Assembly (NCBI GenBank): GCA_937124965.1
Contig: CAKZLB010000017.1
Location: 1 to 64,000, forward strand
Length of the DNA: 64,000 bases
DNA from: an uncultured Bacteroidota bacterium
GTDB lineage: Bacteria > Bacteroidota > Bacteroidia > NS11-12g > UBA9320
Direction of reading: 5' to 3'
The first letter of the stretch is position 1; each line of letters opens with the position of its first letter. The notes under the pieces are model-generated. The model saw only the letters and a program-made list of their open reading frames with translations, ran no database searches and was not told the DNA's origin. Shown here piece after piece: positions 1,473-9,101 of this stretch. The position numbers were made by a program, and so were the translations under genes.

Positions 1473-1703
1473 ACGGCATTCCCGTTTGCGGGACGGGCAG
1501 GAAAACGCAGTCTAGCCAAACGGTTAGCAGTGGGGTATGACTGGAAAGATTTCAAAATTGATGAAGGCTTTTATGTGGTGTATCCAGAAATGAATTGGAT
1601 TATTCAAACCTCTTTAGGCTTTTATTACAAGTTCCATTTTGTAGATTTCTATAACGATTCGAGAGAACGTGGATACCCACGTGTGGAGTTTAAGTTGTTG
1701 TAA
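1473..1703 (+). pseudogene. C-terminal remnant of an unidentified gene
   Basis: The frame ending at the TAA 1701-1703 is open back to a stop at 1470-1472. It has no usable start codon near its 5' end, yet it reads as convincing protein: a Lys/Arg-rich beginning, then an aromatic-rich segment (VGYDWKDFKIDEGFYVVYP) and an ending PRVEFKLL. The alternating aromatic and polar residues and the hydrophobic ending resemble the last strands of an outer-membrane or sheet-rich protein. The parent family was not recognised. It begins inside a short G+C-rich palindromic patch, which suggests deletion of the upstream part. It could also be a chance open frame, but its composition argues against that. Confidence 0.45.
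1474..1500. repeat. Short G+C-rich palindromic patch, possible dispersed repeat
   Basis: Within A/T-rich DNA these 27 bases are strikingly G+C-rich and self-complementary. CCCG-TTTG-CGGG occupies 1481-1492, with an alternative pairing CCCGT/ACGGG at 1481-1485 and 1493-1497. No second copy was noticed in this window, so calling it a dispersed repeat is inference. It sits exactly where the decayed gene fragment begins. Confidence 0.3.
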
Positions 1704-2292: not shown

Positions 2293-4842
2293 ATGACGAT
2301 TCTGAACAAGAAAATTTCTCTAAAACAATTCACCGTGTTTCTATTTTTTGTTACAGCATCGACATTGGCTGTAGTAAGTAATGTAAATTGTAATTCGTCA
2401 GAAACGGCAACTGTAAAGCCGCCATCAGACGATGCAGTCTGTCCGAAAAGTTATGAGTCGGATCTTGAGGAGGTTCAGTATAATCCTGATAACAACAGCT
2501 GTTTGACTTGCCATAAAGGGATAGAACATATCCGAAGTCATAAGTCGGAAATGATGCATGAGATTTTTGAAAAAGCAGAACTTGCAGGTTACAAAGACAA
2601 CAGTTGTATTGTTTGCCATGGGGGTAACCCAGATGCAACTGAAAGTAACAAAGCACATACTGGAACAGCACCTTATTTTACGAACCATGATGGTCCGAAG
2701 GCATTTTACCCGGATCCAGGTAGTCCATACATCAATGAGAACACCTGTGGTATGTGTCACCAAGAACAAGTCAGCACTCAGTTTACAAGTCTTATGTTTA
2801 CGGAAGCTGGTAAAATTCAAGGAACAGCTTGGGGGTTTGGTGGTCAACAGGGTTATAACCACAATGTAGCCAATCAGGAAGTGGATGAGTTAGAAGTCCA
2901 TGATCGATTAGGTACTGATATTTATAAGCAGTATATGGTTGAGCTAAAAAAGGCAGAACCACAAGTTTTTCCTGGTCACATGTCAGCTTTGCCAGAGGCT
3001 CCAACCACAGAACAAGTCCAAGCGAATCCAAAATTATCGGTTTATACCTATTTGCGGCAAGACTGCCAACGGTGTCATACGGGAGTTAAAGGTCATAACG
3101 CCAAAGGAGATTACCGTGGATTAGGTTGTAGCAGCTGCCATTCACCCTATTCAAACAATGGGTTTTATGAAGGGAATGATCCAACGATCGACAAAACGGA
3201 GGCTGGCCATATGTTAGTACATAGTTTTCAGGCGAGCAGAGATGCCAAGGTGAAAGTTCACGACCAAGAGTATAGTGGAGTGCCAACTAAAACCTGTACA
3301 GCATGTCATAATCGTGGACGACGAATCGGAGTTAGCTATGAAGGATTGATGGAGTCTGGATATCACTCGCCATACATGGGAACCGGTGGAGATCAGGAGA
3401 AAATTCACAAGAAAAACTACATTCATTTACAGAGCGATGTGCACTTAAAGAAAGGCATGTTTTGTCAAGATTGCCATACATCTGGCGATATGCATAGTTT
3501 GGGAGACTTGTCTGGAGCAATTCAAGGTGCAGTGGAAATTGAGTGTCAAGATTGTCATGGAACACCTGATAAATATCCATGGGAGTTGCCAATAGGGTAT
3601 GGGGATGAAATAGCTGGAAGTGCTCCTCAAACTGGAGAGGAACGAGGTGTTGTTCAAACCTTACCGACGTATTTGACCTATGGTTCGGTCAATGACAAAG
3701 TCGATGGCTATTTATTAAGTGCTCGCGGAAACCCAATGCCACACGTGGTGAAAAATGGCGATGAGATGATTCTATTTTCAGCAAGTGGGAAAGACATTAA
3801 ATTTAAACCGCTGAAAAAACTAACGGATGACGATGAACTGAGTTTGGAAGGAAAGGTAGCGATGGTTCAAACAGGCCTTCACATGGAAAAAATGGAATGT
3901 TATGCGTGTCACGCCACCTGGGCACCACAGTGTTATGGCTGCCATATAAAAATTGATTACTCAACTGGAAAGCAGAAACTTGATTGGGTGGCTGCTGCGA
4001 AGGATCAAAATAAAAATGGACAAACTGGAGAGGTAATAAGCAAAAACGAAAAAGATAAAATCAATCAGTATTTAATTAATGGTGAAATCAAGGAGGAGAG
4101 AAGTTACCTCCGTTGGGAGGATCCACCATTGGTCGTAAATGGAGATCATCGTATCTCTCCTGCGATTCCTGGATGCCAAACAACAGTTACCGTTAAAGGT
4201 CCAGATGGCAAAATGTTGTTAAAAAATCACATTTTTAAAATAAAACATGCGGAAGGAGCAGGAGAGGAAGGAATAAATGCGATTGACATGAGTCCTGTAC
4301 AGCCTCATACGATTCAGAAAAAAGCAAGAAGTTGTGAAAGCTGCCACACCAAACCAAAATCAATGGGGTATGGAATTCAAAATGGCGAATTGTACTTCAG
4401 ACCGGATTCTAACATCGTAATGGATTTAACGGATGCAGAAGGTCGCGTTTTGGCAAAGCAAGTTGATACTCAGTTTAATGCGATTGAAAACTTGGAGCAT
4501 GATTGGTCGGCTATAATTGATGAAGATGGGAATCAATTGCAAACTGTGGGACATCATTTTTCTGGTTCGCGTCCGTTAAATAAGGAAGAGCTAATGCGAC
4601 TAGATCGACGTGGAGTTTGTATGAGTTGCCATAAGTCTATTCCTGACCAAAGTGTTGCCATAGACCTGTTGAGTCATGTTGCGAAATATTCAAATACTAC
4701 CATTGACAACGAGAAGCATGATCAAATTGTCAATAAGTCTATTCGACTAGCTGCATGGGTGCAAGTGTTGCTTGGGGTGTTGGGAGTTTTTGTTGTGTTT
4801 TGGGTGATACGGAAATTAGTTAAACATAAAAGGCTTAAATAA
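2293..4842 (+). CDS. Dodecahaem c-type cytochrome, membrane anchored
   Basis: Twelve CXXCH haem-binding motifs are visible. Numbered from the alternative start at 2263, they begin at residues 80, 115, 162, 268, 289, 345, 401, 429, 546, 557, 691 and 786. The N-terminus carries a hydrophobic export/anchor segment (about 22-39), and a single C-terminal transmembrane helix (about 829-848) is followed by a basic tail, so the haem domain should lie in the periplasm. Many extra His residues could serve as distal ligands. A stretch of about 110 residues with no haem (434-545) and another at 562-690 suggest inserted non-haem domains. The ATG at 2293 is preferred because it begins a normal signal sequence directly after a purine-rich GAAGGA; an in-frame ATG at 2263 is the alternative. 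The function is probably periplasmic electron transfer; the substrate cannot be read from sequence. The stop overlaps the next gene's start (TAATG). Confidence 0.88.
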   Translation: MTILNKKISLKQFTVFLFFVTASTLAVVSNVNCNSSETATVKPPSDDAVCPKSYESDLEEVQYNPDNNSCLTCHKGIEHIRSHKSEMMHEIFEKAELAGYKDNSCIVCHGGNPDATESNKAHTGTAPYFTNHDGPKAFYPDPGSPYINENTCGMCHQEQVSTQFTSLMFTEAGKIQGTAWGFGGQQGYNHNVANQEVDELEVHDRLGTDIYKQYMVELKKAEPQVFPGHMSALPEAPTTEQVQANPKLSVYTYLRQDCQRCHTGVKGHNAKGDYRGLGCSSCHSPYSNNGFYEGNDPTIDKTEAGHMLVHSFQASRDAKVKVHDQEYSGVPTKTCTACHNRGRRIGVSYEGLMESGYHSPYMGTGGDQEKIHKKNYIHLQSDVHLKKGMFCQDCHTSGDMHSLGDLSGAIQGAVEIECQDCHGTPDKYPWELPIGYGDEIAGSAPQTGEERGVVQTLPTYLTYGSVNDKVDGYLLSARGNPMPHVVKNGDEMILFSASGKDIKFKPLKKLTDDDELSLEGKVAMVQTGLHMEKMECYACHATWAPQCYGCHIKIDYSTGKQKLDWVAAAKDQNKNGQTGEVISKNEKDKINQYLINGEIKEERSYLRWEDPPLVVNGDHRISPAIPGCQTTVTVKGPDGKMLLKNHIFKIKHAEGAGEEGINAIDMSPVQPHTIQKKARSCESCHTKPKSMGYGIQNGELYFRPDSNIVMDLTDAEGRVLAKQVDTQFNAIENLEHDWSAIIDEDGNQLQTVGHHFSGSRPLNKEELMRLDRRGVCMSCHKSIPDQSVAIDLLSHVAKYSNTTIDNEKHDQIVNKSIRLAAWVQVLLGVLGVFVVFWVIRKLVKHKRLK

Positions 4843-5540
4843 TGACTAAGTCAATTAATAAACTCTGTGGCATTGCTACGATTTTAAGTCTCATCTGTAT
4901 TACTTCATCCTCAAGTGCTAAAGTGAAGTTTAGAATTGAATCACCTTCAGAGGAGTTAATTTCTCAAGATAATGAATCAGACCGCTACGATCGACTTGAA
5001 GTATTTGTTAACGGCGTATTTTGTTCGAAAAAAGACATATGGTATAAAGTTGAGCCACGTAAAACGGGTCTGGATGTAATTGTTGTTAAGAATGAAGATT
5101 CAATTGGTGATTGTGATACCATTTATGCTAAACTTAGAGATAAATTGGAATATCGGTTTGTGTTTAATGTTTGTAGTTTTTACGAAATTGTTCCTGGAAA
5201 GGGAAAAGTAGGTTCACACGGGTATATTCGAATAATTTCAGAAGATCGAGATTCAATAAATTGGTACTTCACCACAAGTATGACCATGGTTTATGATTCT
5301 CTAATACGCACGCAGGATACCACCAAGTATTTTGAAGTGTTCTTTAGTGCCTATTGTCCGTATACGCCAACTGGTTTCTATTTCTGCAATTCTGATGTCG
5401 ATAATCAACCTGTATTTTACCCGGGGGACTTGTGTTATGGTAAAGTAATTTGGTTCAGTGGAACCGAACACTATTCTTTAATTTACAACTATCGAAACCG
5501 TGAGATGCGCCTAGTTTTTGAAGGATATTCGATAGAATAA
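4842..5540 (+). CDS. Exported protein of unknown function, coupled to the 12-haem cytochrome
   Basis: This 232-residue protein has a signal peptide (hydrophobic segment ending near SSSSA, residues 8-25). The mature domain has six or more cysteines spread along its length and is rich in aromatic residues and strand-like alternation. No family was recognised. Its ATG overlaps the cytochrome stop codon by one base (TAATG), a classic arrangement for translational coupling, so it probably works with the cytochrome in the periplasm or envelope. It contains no CXXCH motif, so it is not itself a c-type cytochrome. The function is unknown. Confidence 0.75.
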   Translation: MTKSINKLCGIATILSLICITSSSSAKVKFRIESPSEELISQDNESDRYDRLEVFVNGVFCSKKDIWYKVEPRKTGLDVIVVKNEDSIGDCDTIYAKLRDKLEYRFVFNVCSFYEIVPGKGKVGSHGYIRIISEDRDSINWYFTTSMTMVYDSLIRTQDTTKYFEVFFSAYCPYTPTGFYFCNSDVDNQPVFYPGDLCYGKVIWFSGTEHYSLIYNYRNREMRLVFEGYSIE

Positions 5541-5557
5541 AGCAAGTAAACGCGTGA

Positions 5558-6130
5558 TCATTTCAATCCAAAAATCAACCAAGCAATGACAGGCAGCAAC
5601 GCACCTGCCAGCATGAACCAGACTCCTCGCTTCCGAAATCCTTTTTTCCCTTTTAAAACAAAAAGACCCGTAATGCTGATTACGATTAAGAAAAAAGCGA
5701 AAATGTCGGATACCCATTTCCAACCAGCCAAACTATTTCGATGCAAGACGTTTGCTTCATAAAAAATTGGACGTCTTTTTACCTGCTCATAGGTCCCACT
5801 CAACGATTTTTTATGAATATGTAATGTTGCGTTTTTATAATACACTTTAACTTGGTCAGGTGTAGGTTTATCATAGACTCGATAATTGGACTCACCAACA
5901 ATCGTGGATAGTGAATTTATGTGACTTGGCGAAGGGTTCTCAAACGGGAAACTGGAAGGAATTTCTACATCAGTTTTCGTAATGATAAAATCAGGATTCC
6001 AGTCGTCAACGTGGTTTAGTGCAAAACCAGAGAGACAATAAATAATGATTAACGTCGAAAAGAAGTAACCAACATCACGATGGGTAACGATGTTGAACTT
6101 TCGAAGCTTTTTCTTAAGACTTGGTTTCAC
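5558..6130 (-). CDS. PepSY-associated transmembrane protein (possible haem-b ferric reductase type)
   Basis: This is a 190-residue inner-membrane protein. It has a transmembrane helix at about 20-37, a periplasmic PepSY-like region (about 40-128), and two C-terminal helices at about 136-160 and 169-187. Histidines lie at the membrane edges: His17 in the THRDVGYFF motif, His40 after the first helix and His130 just before the second. The PepSY-TM family includes ferric-siderophore reductases in other bacteria, where such histidines can hold haem b. That role is family knowledge and is not proven here. The gene starts four bases after the stop of the chelatase-like lipoprotein, so the two form an operon, and it converges with the 12-haem cytochrome pair. 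Confidence 0.75.
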   Translation of the reverse strand: MKPSLKKKLRKFNIVTHRDVGYFFSTLIIIYCLSGFALNHVDDWNPDFIITKTDVEIPSSFPFENPSPSHINSLSTIVGESNYRVYDKPTPDQVKVYYKNATLHIHKKSLSGTYEQVKRRPIFYEANVLHRNSLAGWKWVSDIFAFFLIVISITGLFVLKGKKGFRKRGVWFMLAGALLPVIAWLIFGLK

Positions 6131-6134
6131 CGAA

Positions 6135-7091
6135 TCACATTATTCTGTTTGAGGTAATATGGTCGGCATGGGTTGCGACAATAGAGATCACCCAATCTTC
6201 AACATTTTTATCTGGAAGAATAGCGTCGGGTCTGTATATAACTTTATTCGAATGGTCGCTAATGGCATTGATGCCATCGCCTATAATTTTCACTTGAAAC
6301 ATTTCGTCGTGTGCAACTAAAACAGGCATAACTACGGCAGATGGTTTTTCCTGTAAAACTTCATTTATAGCTATTGTGGTTGAGTCTGGATTGTAATGCG
6401 CTATATGACCACACCAATTGTAACTGTAAGTGGTTAATTCTGTGTTGGCTATAACGTGTTGACCAACAGAATCCATTAATGCCGACCATTCGTCGTTATA
6501 TCCAGCGTCGCCATAGGCTATTAATGCTAAGCCTTCATCCTTTGAGTTTTTCGATATTGCTTGATAACGTCTCAGAATATTCTGTTCTAATATAGTTGTA
6601 AAATCGAGCAACGGTGTAATATGTGTTTTAGCTTTTGCTACATATCGTTCAATCTTTTCAATTTTTAATGTTTCAAGACTTTGTGGATCTTCTTTGGTCC
6701 CAATGATGGTAGGAATGTCATCGAAAGAGTGAGAGCTAACCGTTAAAAATATTGGAACAATAATGACGTCAGTGTAACCTGCCGAGTCGAATTGCTTCAT
6801 TCTTGTCGCAATTGAAGGTTCTGTATACTCCATAAAGGCTGTTTTGACGTCCGAGATACGTTTGTCTTTTAAAATGGTTCCTCGCACTGTACTATCTAAA
6901 TCAGTTAGCGCTTTTCTCCATGTTGGCGAGTGTGAACCATGATTTACTAACAAAACTGCAATTTTTTGAGAGTCTTTAGTTTGTTGCTCAGTCGCTTGTT
7001 TTTTCTCCGAACAAGAAAACAAAGTGCAACAAGTTAGAATGGCAATGAATAATCGTTGGGTTAAATAGTTAACGTTTAATAAGTGTGGCAT
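6135..7091 (-). CDS. CbiX/SirB-like chelatase-fold lipoprotein
   Basis: This 318-residue protein resembles the class II chelatases (CbiX, SirB, CbiK), which insert Co, Fe or Ni into tetrapyrroles. The N-terminal half has the two metal-ligand motifs: His51 in VNHGSHSP and His121 in SSHSFDDIP. The second half looks like a degenerate repeat in which HG is replaced by YGD at about 193, with a later His261 in VAHDEMF. Unusually for a chelatase, it begins with a lipoprotein signal (hydrophobic segment 13-26, LFSC with Cys27), so it should be membrane-tethered outside the cytoplasm. It forms an operon with the PepSY-TM gene. It may bind or load metal or haem rather than act in cobalamin synthesis. 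Fold identity is good; function is inferred. Confidence 0.8.
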   Translation of the reverse strand: MPHLLNVNYLTQRLFIAILTCCTLFSCSEKKQATEQQTKDSQKIAVLLVNHGSHSPTWRKALTDLDSTVRGTILKDKRISDVKTAFMEYTEPSIATRMKQFDSAGYTDVIIVPIFLTVSSHSFDDIPTIIGTKEDPQSLETLKIEKIERYVAKAKTHITPLLDFTTILEQNILRRYQAISKNSKDEGLALIAYGDAGYNDEWSALMDSVGQHVIANTELTTYSYNWCGHIAHYNPDSTTIAINEVLQEKPSAVVMPVLVAHDEMFQVKIIGDGINAISDHSNKVIYRPDAILPDKNVEDWVISIVATHADHITSNRIM

Positions 7092-7163: not shown

Positions 7164-9101
7164 TTAATTTCTCAACCGACTTAGGTCAGCGGTGCATCGC
7201 GTTCGTGCTCTTTTAGCAAAACGATATAAAGCGCGATTATCAGCAAGGTGCTTCTTTCGTTTATTTCGGGAAATTGTAATCGGAACCCATAATCTGCGCT
7301 CGAAAGCCACGGCAGTACGTGGGGCTTGCACCGAACCATTCGTTCGATTAAGCAGTTTGCAGAATTCTAGCATTGCCACTGCAGAATCTAAGTAACTAGA
7401 TTCTGTCTTTTTCGCCCTTCGTATGTTTTTTCTAAAGTCATCATCCAGGGAATAGTAAACAGTTCTATTACCAGTGATCTTTTTAATTTTATATAATACA
7501 CTTCGCTGTCGCTTCAAATAGCGAAATTGTTGCTTCCCTTGTCTATATAAGGAATCTATTAAATCATCAACCTCGTCATAGCGTTGTTTCAGTTTTAATA
7601 ATGAATCTTTCTTTTGAGGTGTGGTTAGGCTTCTTTTAACTTCCCGAATGCTGTAATCATAATCATCTTGCGAGAAAAAGAACCGATAACTTATAAGCGA
7701 TGAAAAATGACCTAGAATGGAATCGGTATATTGATTTTGGTCAGTTGTGGCTTGCTGTAACAAGTCTCCGCTGTTTATGATCTCCTGATAAAGGTTGGCC
7801 ATATCTCCAGAATGAGCAGTAATGCTGTCTTCGTATAATCTAAAAACGTCAACTAGAGAGTCTAGTTTTTCATTGTTGCTTTTCTTTGACCACTTAGGTG
7901 GTTTAGTCACATGATCTTTGAACAAGGAATTGTATTTCTGTTTAATTCGGTCTTTTCTGTAATTGGCCCGTCGTATCTTGTGTTTTAGCTTGCCATTGCG
8001 GCTTTTACTGCGAGCTTTAACGTGTTTTAAATAGTTTGCATAAAGTGTGTTATATCTTCGCTGCTGCGATAGTTTGTCACGATATTTTTTATACAAATCA
8101 CGATACTCTTCCCAAATTAAACTATCGTTTTTGTGATTATAGAATAGCACACTATCTGCAATCTGTATCATGTTTTTTAAAAACACACTATCCTTTCGAT
8201 ACAGTTTTGGGTCGTCTTGAAGCTTTTCGACTTCTCGTCGCATATCAACCATATGGTATCGAACATTACCAAACTGATTTTTAGGATTTAATGTAGCAGC
8301 GTGCTTGCCATCTTCTTTGATTTTTGCGGTTTCAGACAATGCCGAATACCATCCCAAATACGTATTAACCTTGGTTGAGTTTGTAAACAGAACCGTATCC
8401 TTGTATAAGTATGCTGCGCTATCAAGATCAAACGAGCGGTTAGACACCGAGGTAATAAAACCTTGAGCGTTATAATTCTCTGGAAGGTGTTGAACAGAAA
8501 AGAGTCTGTCGTTGGTTAGGAAAAATTTTGTTGTGGGTTTACTAACTGAATGTGGTTTATAGATTACAGGTCGAATTATTCCAAACGATATACGTGACAG
8601 AAATTGACGAAAATTGGATGTTTTGTAAAATTGAACATAGCTAGCATCCCACGTGGCATCGACGTTTAACCAGTCTCCGTTAACCCATACTTTGTTCCAA
8701 GAATGGTCGGGCAAATACGAGGTGTCACCTATGTCAACAAAGGTGTTCTTCGTATAACCATGAATGACGACAGAGTTTACCCCAGCTGCGCCGCACATCG
8801 AATGGAAAAGATTCGCATAACCAGTACACAACGTTTTACGATTTTTTAAAACTGAAGAAACATCTTGTTTGTCTGTATCCCACTTTACAAATCGTTTAAT
8901 ATCATATTCGATGTTACGCGTTATCCAAAAATGAATATGGTCTACTTTTTGACTATCCGTCTCGGCTCCATCAATTATTTTTTGGGTTAGCTTGCCAACG
9001 TCTTTTCGAATCCATCGATACCGTTTATCTACATTGGTTTTTTGCGCAAATACAATGGTTGTACAGCAAACAAAAATGAACCATGTAATAAGGCGAAGCA
9101 T
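7164..9101 (-). CDS. Exported transglutaminase-like cysteine protein with long basic tail
   Basis: The 645-residue precursor has a signal peptide ending at FAQ (about residue 20). Residues 50-150 carry a transglutaminase-like core: Cys92 in TLCTGYANLFHS, His133 in PDHSWNKVW and Asp148 in WLNVDATWD, the classic Cys-His-Asp order of the papain-like transglutaminase superfamily. Such proteins act as peptidases or cross-linkers in the envelope. The remaining ~450 residues are highly charged, rich in Lys, Arg, Tyr and Ser, with probable helical stretches, and match no family known to me; they may bind cell wall or polyanions. The gene stands alone, 73 bases upstream of the chelatase-like gene and in the same direction. 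Confident for the domain; biological role unknown. Confidence 0.8.
   Translation of the reverse strand: MLRLITWFIFVCCTTIVFAQKTNVDKRYRWIRKDVGKLTQKIIDGAETDSQKVDHIHFWITRNIEYDIKRFVKWDTDKQDVSSVLKNRKTLCTGYANLFHSMCGAAGVNSVVIHGYTKNTFVDIGDTSYLPDHSWNKVWVNGDWLNVDATWDASYVQFYKTSNFRQFLSRISFGIIRPVIYKPHSVSKPTTKFFLTNDRLFSVQHLPENYNAQGFITSVSNRSFDLDSAAYLYKDTVLFTNSTKVNTYLGWYSALSETAKIKEDGKHAATLNPKNQFGNVRYHMVDMRREVEKLQDDPKLYRKDSVFLKNMIQIADSVLFYNHKNDSLIWEEYRDLYKKYRDKLSQQRRYNTLYANYLKHVKARSKSRNGKLKHKIRRANYRKDRIKQKYNSLFKDHVTKPPKWSKKSNNEKLDSLVDVFRLYEDSITAHSGDMANLYQEIINSGDLLQQATTDQNQYTDSILGHFSSLISYRFFFSQDDYDYSIREVKRSLTTPQKKDSLLKLKQRYDEVDDLIDSLYRQGKQQFRYLKRQRSVLYKIKKITGNRTVYYSLDDDFRKNIRRAKKTESSYLDSAVAMLEFCKLLNRTNGSVQAPRTAVAFERRLWVPITISRNKRKKHLADNRALYRFAKRARTRCTADLSRLRN

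Follow-up and report, generated by a model that had tools for sequence, protein, structure and literature searches.

A CbiX-fold lipoprotein and its PepSY-TM partner probably help to take iron from haem in environmental Bacteroidota lacking HmuS

A stretch of 64,000 nt of contig CAKZLB010000017.1 (the window; the genome is labelled G000), from an uncultured member of the Bacteroidota, carries within its first 7.1 kb the four genes studied here: a dodecahaem cytochrome and an exported protein on one strand and, on the other, a cbiX-like gene for an exported class II chelatase-fold lipoprotein together with a gene for a PepSY-TM membrane protein (Table 1). The last two, cbiX-pepSY, probably help to take iron from haem in environmental Bacteroidota that lack HmuS, the CobN-type haem de-chelatase with which the haemophore HmuY is known to be partnered in Bacteroidota of the gut and mouth (PMC12583661). 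We hold with moderate confidence that the pair is an envelope module that frees iron from haem and replaces HmuS. An earlier note on this DNA had placed all four genes in this interval and on these strands, which proved correct, and had joined them in one envelope system for iron or haem handling and electron transfer. The theme was borne out by the HmuY/TonB loci of the pair and by an hmu cluster in the genus, but the grouping of four genes was not. The haem link comes from gene context outside the coordinates covered by that note, including a remnant of hmuY, and so was not visible to it.

A scan of a genome collection seeded with the lipoprotein yielded 48 other loci, mostly in metagenome-assembled genomes (MAGs) of Bacteroidota, with a few in gammaproteobacterial, Nitrospira-labelled and Dadabacteria-labelled bins; a phylum sample of 296 genomes was used as an independent comparison set. 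In the window the two minus-strand genes are separated by 4 bases, as the earlier note had described, and its suggestion that the lipoprotein should co-occur elsewhere with PepSY-TM holds, since a PepSY-TM gene is the next gene after cbiX on the same strand in 39 of the 48 loci, at spacings from overlapping frames up to an 18-base gap. At five loci (L040, L042, L043, L044 and L045) PepSY-TM is replaced by a NosR-like membrane protein (FMN_bind plus 4Fe-4S, Fer4_5), and G009, from the same family as the window organism, has a NosR-like gene after cbiX; the remaining four contigs stop at cbiX. Wherever DNA continues past cbiX, therefore, this place is taken by one or other of two membrane redox proteins that are unrelated. 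Few changes of partner label (PepSY-TM or NosR-like) are needed on the lipoprotein tree, so the swap of partner is old rather than noise.

The window PepSY-TM protein matches PF16357 well (1.8e-17, 64.5 bits, cut-off 27) and PF03929 barely (1.1e-6, 29.2 bits, cut-off 28.8). Three transmembrane (TM) helices and one PepSY-type sheet are predicted, the latter on the periplasmic side, and His17, His40 and His130 are invariant in an alignment of 28 sequences; the AlphaFold2 model is of moderate confidence (overall predicted local distance difference test score, pLDDT, 75). The earlier note had remarked that PepSY-TM proteins include ferric reductases; FoxB, FpvG, FhuB and HiuB are described as inner-membrane proteins of this kind acting in the periplasmic reduction of ferric siderophores (PMC10866019, PMC13001220). 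The family studied here resembles them in its predicted periplasm-facing PepSY domain, its His-bearing TM helices and the adjacent TonB receptor. Unlike the FoxB/FpvG type, with two PepSY domains and four TM helices, the window protein is small, has one PepSY domain and three predicted TM helices, and has a chelatase-fold lipoprotein as its partner.

The lipoprotein matches Pfam CbiX above the cut-off (9.1e-13; 48.9 vs 22 bits). Its best profile match is CfbA (2e-13), at a score below the equivalog cut-off of the NCBIfam CfbA model for sirohydrochlorin nickel/cobalt chelatase (61.4 vs 120 bits), and it also stays below the gathering score of Pfam CbiK (PF06180; 17.4 vs 26.2 bits). His51, Glu88 and His121 are invariant in an alignment of 36 lipoproteins and line up with metal-site residues in CfbA and SirB; the two histidines had already been picked out in the window sequence, as had the lipobox, whose Cys27 is retained in at least 90% of the aligned lipoproteins. 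The C-terminal half contains a separate invariant set (Trp226-Cys227-Gly228-His229 and Tyr233), and no internal repeat between the halves was detectable by sequence profile. A conserved acidic export signal is absent after the lipobox cysteine in the 36-sequence alignment; under the general rules of lipoprotein export in Bacteroidota, a lipobox cysteine with no such signal suggests, from sequence, that the protein sits on the periplasm-facing side of a membrane.

The AlphaFold2 model of the lipoprotein (pLDDT 88.5) has a two-domain chelatase fold that matches SirB over its whole length (Z 19.7 over 244 residues). It was also matched to the periplasmic cobaltochelatase CbiK(P) from Desulfovibrio vulgaris (PDB 2XVX/2XVZ; 13% identity, Z 16.1 over 233 residues), to coproporphyrin and protoporphyrin ferrochelatases (Z about 15–16) and to FetB/IhtB of Porphyromonas gingivalis (Z 15.2, 10% identity in the structural alignment). 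FetB was not matched by sequence among PDB chains in a search with the lipoprotein profile A2, and its structural match is read as common fold, not common function. SirB, CbiX and CfbA are thus the nearest in fold, give the best profile match and have the conserved His/Glu/His residues. These biosynthetic proteins are cytoplasmic enzymes, whereas the window protein is predicted to be exported and lipid-anchored, and at carrier loci it is encoded among haem-uptake genes. CbiK(P), identified as CbiK by its PDB title, shares the extracytoplasmic placement of a class II chelatase; we know of no link between it and HmuY or PepSY proteins.

The neighbourhood of the pair points to haem. When neighbouring genes were clustered, the two dominant families were TonB-dependent receptors and HmuY-like proteins, and 29 of the 33 members of the latter match PF14064. 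In L033 and L043 HmuY was identified by this model, and weak "HmuY" matches of a home-made profile in L011, L015 and L037 were left out because that profile takes in a type IX secretion tail. In 26 of the 48 loci an HmuY gene is found no more than 3.2 kb from cbiX, usually with a TonB-dependent receptor. By chance about 0.4% would be expected per locus, given some two HmuY genes in a genome of 3.4 Mb; the loci are related, so a formal p-value for the adjacency comes out too small. A TonB receptor is near cbiX in about 28 loci, and the usual gene order is hmuY-cbiX-pepSY-TBDT-hmuY, where TBDT is the TonB-dependent receptor. In the Thiotrichales locus L043 the order TBDT-HmuY-CbiX-NosR-like-CbiX was found. 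The adjacency was repeated in the 296-genome sample, with HmuY at 0.1–2.8 kb from cbiX in G062, G144 and G068. At the genome level, HmuY is present in 35 of 41 carrier genomes vs 90 of 296 in the phylum sample (Fisher p about 1e-11). Within the phylum sample alone the association is weak (4 of 8 strong carriers with HmuY vs 90 of 296), and the signal therefore comes from adjacency and from the larger carrier set. In a published map of the surroundings of a Rhodothermus marinus gene, hmuY and cbiX appear, uncommented, in the same cluster (PMC6987092). No paper describing the pair as a unit was found in a literature search that was largely without subscription journals.

The distribution of HmuS fits a replacement. 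The CobN/HmuS family (PF02514) was not found in 42 of 49 carrier genomes, G000 included; as HmuS is a CobN-type protein, these 42 would have no HmuS. Six of the seven exceptions have three to five CobN-family copies, a number expected of chlorophyll-making phototrophs, which by that copy number they probably are. In the phylum sample HmuS adjoins HmuY in G310 and G347 and the pair adjoins HmuY in other genomes; no sampled genome had both HmuS and cbiX-pepSY beside HmuY, a complementary distribution in numbers that are small and in genomes that are partly incomplete.

In the mechanism that we propose, HmuY would capture haem and the TonB-dependent receptor would bring it into the periplasm, where His51, Glu88 and His121 of the CbiX-fold lipoprotein would form the binding site for the metalloporphyrin. 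Electrons would come from the PepSY-TM protein of the inner membrane or, in some lineages, from the NosR-like FMN/4Fe-4S protein; Fe(III) would be reduced to Fe(II) on the lipoprotein-bound haem and Fe(II) then released, a reductive de-chelation in which the module would stand in for HmuS by means of a class II chelatase fold. The role proposed for the pair is close to that of HmuS, and the fold of the lipoprotein is close to those of SirB and FetB; the pair is a variant within the known haem-acquisition chelatase systems. As in HmuYRSTUV of Porphyromonas and Bacteroides, HmuY and a TonB-dependent receptor stand beside a chelatase-family protein expected in the envelope; the HmuY and HmuR-like receptor genes are within 3.2 kb in relatives, and in the window genome they are on contig C16, with the remnant left in the window. 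HmuS itself is of the CobN type (class I) and well over 1000 aa, unlike the 318-aa class II CbiX-fold lipoprotein with its dedicated membrane redox partner. P. gingivalis IhtB/FetB, proposed to remove iron from haem (PMC10913741), is likewise an envelope lipoprotein of the class II chelatase fold with a TonB receptor near, the receptor of the window genome being on another contig. It differs in that the Iht system, as published, comprises a receptor and an ABC transporter, with neither PepSY-TM nor HmuY listed, and in that FetB is described as a CbiK homologue.

Several observations weigh against release of haem iron by the pair. Four phototroph-like genomes (f19) have the pair and TonB receptors and no HmuY, and the carriers among sponge-symbiont gammaproteobacteria are also without HmuY. 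In the Bacteroidota loci L007, L013, L023, L028, L030 and L031 there is no HmuY within 10 kb, though it is present elsewhere in those genomes, and the intact hmuY-TBDT-hmuY genes of the window genome are on another contig. Many carriers are MAGs that may be incomplete, so the absence of HmuS from them is not proof. Moreover, the best-studied lipoprotein of this fold, FetB/IhtB, is reported to insert Mn into protoporphyrin, as cited in a recent review (PMC13402209), and the reaction could run the opposite way. The lipoprotein would then load protoporphyrin at the envelope with another metal, for instance Mn or Co, as has been proposed for FetB, and the PepSY-TM protein would keep the metal or porphyrin reduced. 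The two proteins share their fold, and the gene for FetB, likewise a lipoprotein, accompanies one for a TonB receptor in P. gingivalis (PMC10913741). Such metal insertion or exchange is nevertheless unlikely, since removal of iron from haem accords better with genes so tightly linked to HmuY and a redox protein, and the window lipoprotein falls short of the cut-off for CbiK, of which FetB is described as a homologue. The pair could also act on cobalamin, chlorophyll breakdown products or metallophores, with the HmuY linkage secondary. The best NCBIfam models of the adjacent TonB receptors are of haem/haemoglobin or B12 type with near-equal scores, which together with the HmuY-free phototroph-like genomes would suit this explanation, but the frequency of HmuY in carrier genomes and its closeness to cbiX make it quite improbable. 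Release of iron from haem remains the reading that we prefer.

Variant arrangements of the pair were also observed. At L079, L080 and L064 (G206, G186 and G325) and L081 (G230), all phototroph-like, two diverged CbiX lipoproteins flank one PepSY-TM gene; TonB receptors are nearby, although the short contig of G325 does not resolve this, and HmuY is absent. A different substrate is possible for these double-CbiX loci. At L043 (6857–9667) a CbiX, a NosR-like protein and a second, fast-evolving CbiX are encoded in a row beside HmuY and a TonB receptor. Two Nitrospira-labelled bins (L034 6102–7850 and L036 2096–3790) encode exported proteins of 563–582 aa, near a CbiX-PepSY pair and in L034 with a TonB receptor, that give one weak CbiX match and are apparent tandem double chelatase units.

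The cytochrome belongs elsewhere. It has exactly 12 CXXCH motifs and one predicted C-terminal TM helix (816–844), in agreement with the earlier note, and a signal-like N-terminal helix (10–28); its frame also has a start at 2263, and the signal sequence begins at 2293. It is ExtM-like, yet below the NCBIfam equivalog cut-off (215.8 vs 800 bits). It was found in all five genus genomes searched and in two more distant relatives; G000 was the sole match in the 296-genome phylum sample, and the cytochrome was rejected as a phylum-wide partner. Synteny within the genus was read from loci L084–L087, of four other members. In G001, G002 and G004 the cytochrome gene comes after AraC/hmuY1-TBDT-hmuY2 in the same orientation, about 46–48 bp away, and CbiX-PepSY is lacking; in G003 the distance from hmuY2 to the downstream cytochrome gene is 1.2 kb, and the cytochrome and the pair are on separate contigs.

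The window genome carries its hmuY1-TBDT-hmuY2 block on contig C16 (L056 6708–11239). The hmuY2 remnant upstream of the window cytochrome is 91% identical (blastn 158/174) to L056 11065–11238, the 3' end of the intact copy; it reads in frame, and its PF14064 match is partial and below the cut-off. The fragment is the trace of an hmu operon rearranged in the window strain, and on the simplest reading the hmu block once adjoined the window cytochrome and then moved, or was copied and lost. The breakpoint region upstream of it (1416–1528) has a GC-rich, palindrome-like stretch at 1481–1501; a mobile element at the breakpoint was considered and rejected, the palindrome being single-copy in the window and absent from the loci of the other genomes.

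Table 1. Position, strand and supporting evidence of the features described in the window
Feature	Position	Strand	Evidence
Dodecahaem c-type cytochrome with C-terminal membrane anchor	2293–4842	+	849 aa, 12 CXXCH, ExtM-like score, genus synteny
Exported protein, orphan	4842–5540	+	232 aa, no Pfam match, strain-specific
PepSY-TM membrane protein	5558–6130	-	190 aa, PF16357 and PF03929 matches
cbiX-like gene, exported class II chelatase-fold lipoprotein	6135–7091	-	318 aa, Pfam CbiX, lipobox Cys27
hmuY2 remnant (last 174 bp)	1529–1702	+	Partial PF14064, blastn, in-frame translation

At the level of the genus the cytochrome belongs to the hmu gene cluster; it is not a partner of cbiX-pepSY. The convergence of four genes described in the earlier note is true of their positions, but a cytochrome beside the pair is seen in the window strain only, and the co-occurrence that the note had suggested looking for failed, with a cytochrome gene near the pair at none of the 48 other loci. 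Its claim of an exported partner translationally coupled to the cytochrome stands in part. The partner has an N-terminal hydrophobic stretch, and its ATG overlaps the cytochrome stop codon by one base (TAATG), which makes coupling plausible from the arrangement of the reading frames; no Pfam match was obtained and no relative was found in 57 related genomes, so it was rejected as a conserved component. One system made of the cytochrome, this partner, the lipoprotein and PepSY-TM is extremely unlikely in view of the separate placement of the cytochrome and the pair in the genus, and a whole module with the cytochrome was rejected on synteny. What speaks for it, beyond adjacency in the window strain, is that each half connects independently to hmu genes, and for the same reason both halves point to haem uptake. 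The cytochrome bears, too, on the possibility that the lipoprotein has lost catalysis and carries haem in the periplasm; PepSY-TM would then reduce the haem before it is handed on, for instance to the maturation of c-type cytochromes or through the inner membrane. A 12-haem protein in the hmu cluster of the genus implies a heavy haem demand, and the periplasmic CbiK of Desulfovibrio is a structural neighbour. We regard a chaperone as unlikely, however, because the three invariant metal-site residues argue for a working site and because at the other carrier loci no cytochrome of this kind is near the pair.

Around these genes, an apolipoprotein N-acyltransferase-like protein (LNT_N plus CN_hydrolase) is encoded at the contig start (33–1415), and the contig boundary may truncate it N-terminally. 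The gene at 7164–9101, for a transglutaminase-like protein whose C-terminal part is long and basic, is conserved beside the cytochrome gene in G002 and G004, and a small lipoprotein-like open reading frame with a heavy-metal-binding domain (HMBD, PF19335; 11965–12204) is kept near the cytochrome in three other genus members.

How bacteria with no haem oxygenase free the iron of haem is under active study. Only in 2025 was HmuS reported to be a de-chelatase, and the source of its electrons is unresolved (PMC12583661). In the present case the chelatase is much smaller and is encoded together with its likely redox partner, and one slot is shared by two redox proteins of unrelated kinds, so that a reductive mechanism becomes directly testable. 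The results also give a hypothesis of function for genes whose families carry the names of cobalamin or sirohydrochlorin chelatases. Tentatively, the pair may represent a second, unrecognised way of extracting haem iron outside the cytoplasm, in which a class II chelatase lipoprotein working in reverse, with a dedicated membrane electron donor (PepSY-TM or NosR-like), would replace HmuS and leave the porphyrin intact in environmental Bacteroidota and, by horizontal transfer, in some gammaproteobacteria and Nitrospira-labelled bins.

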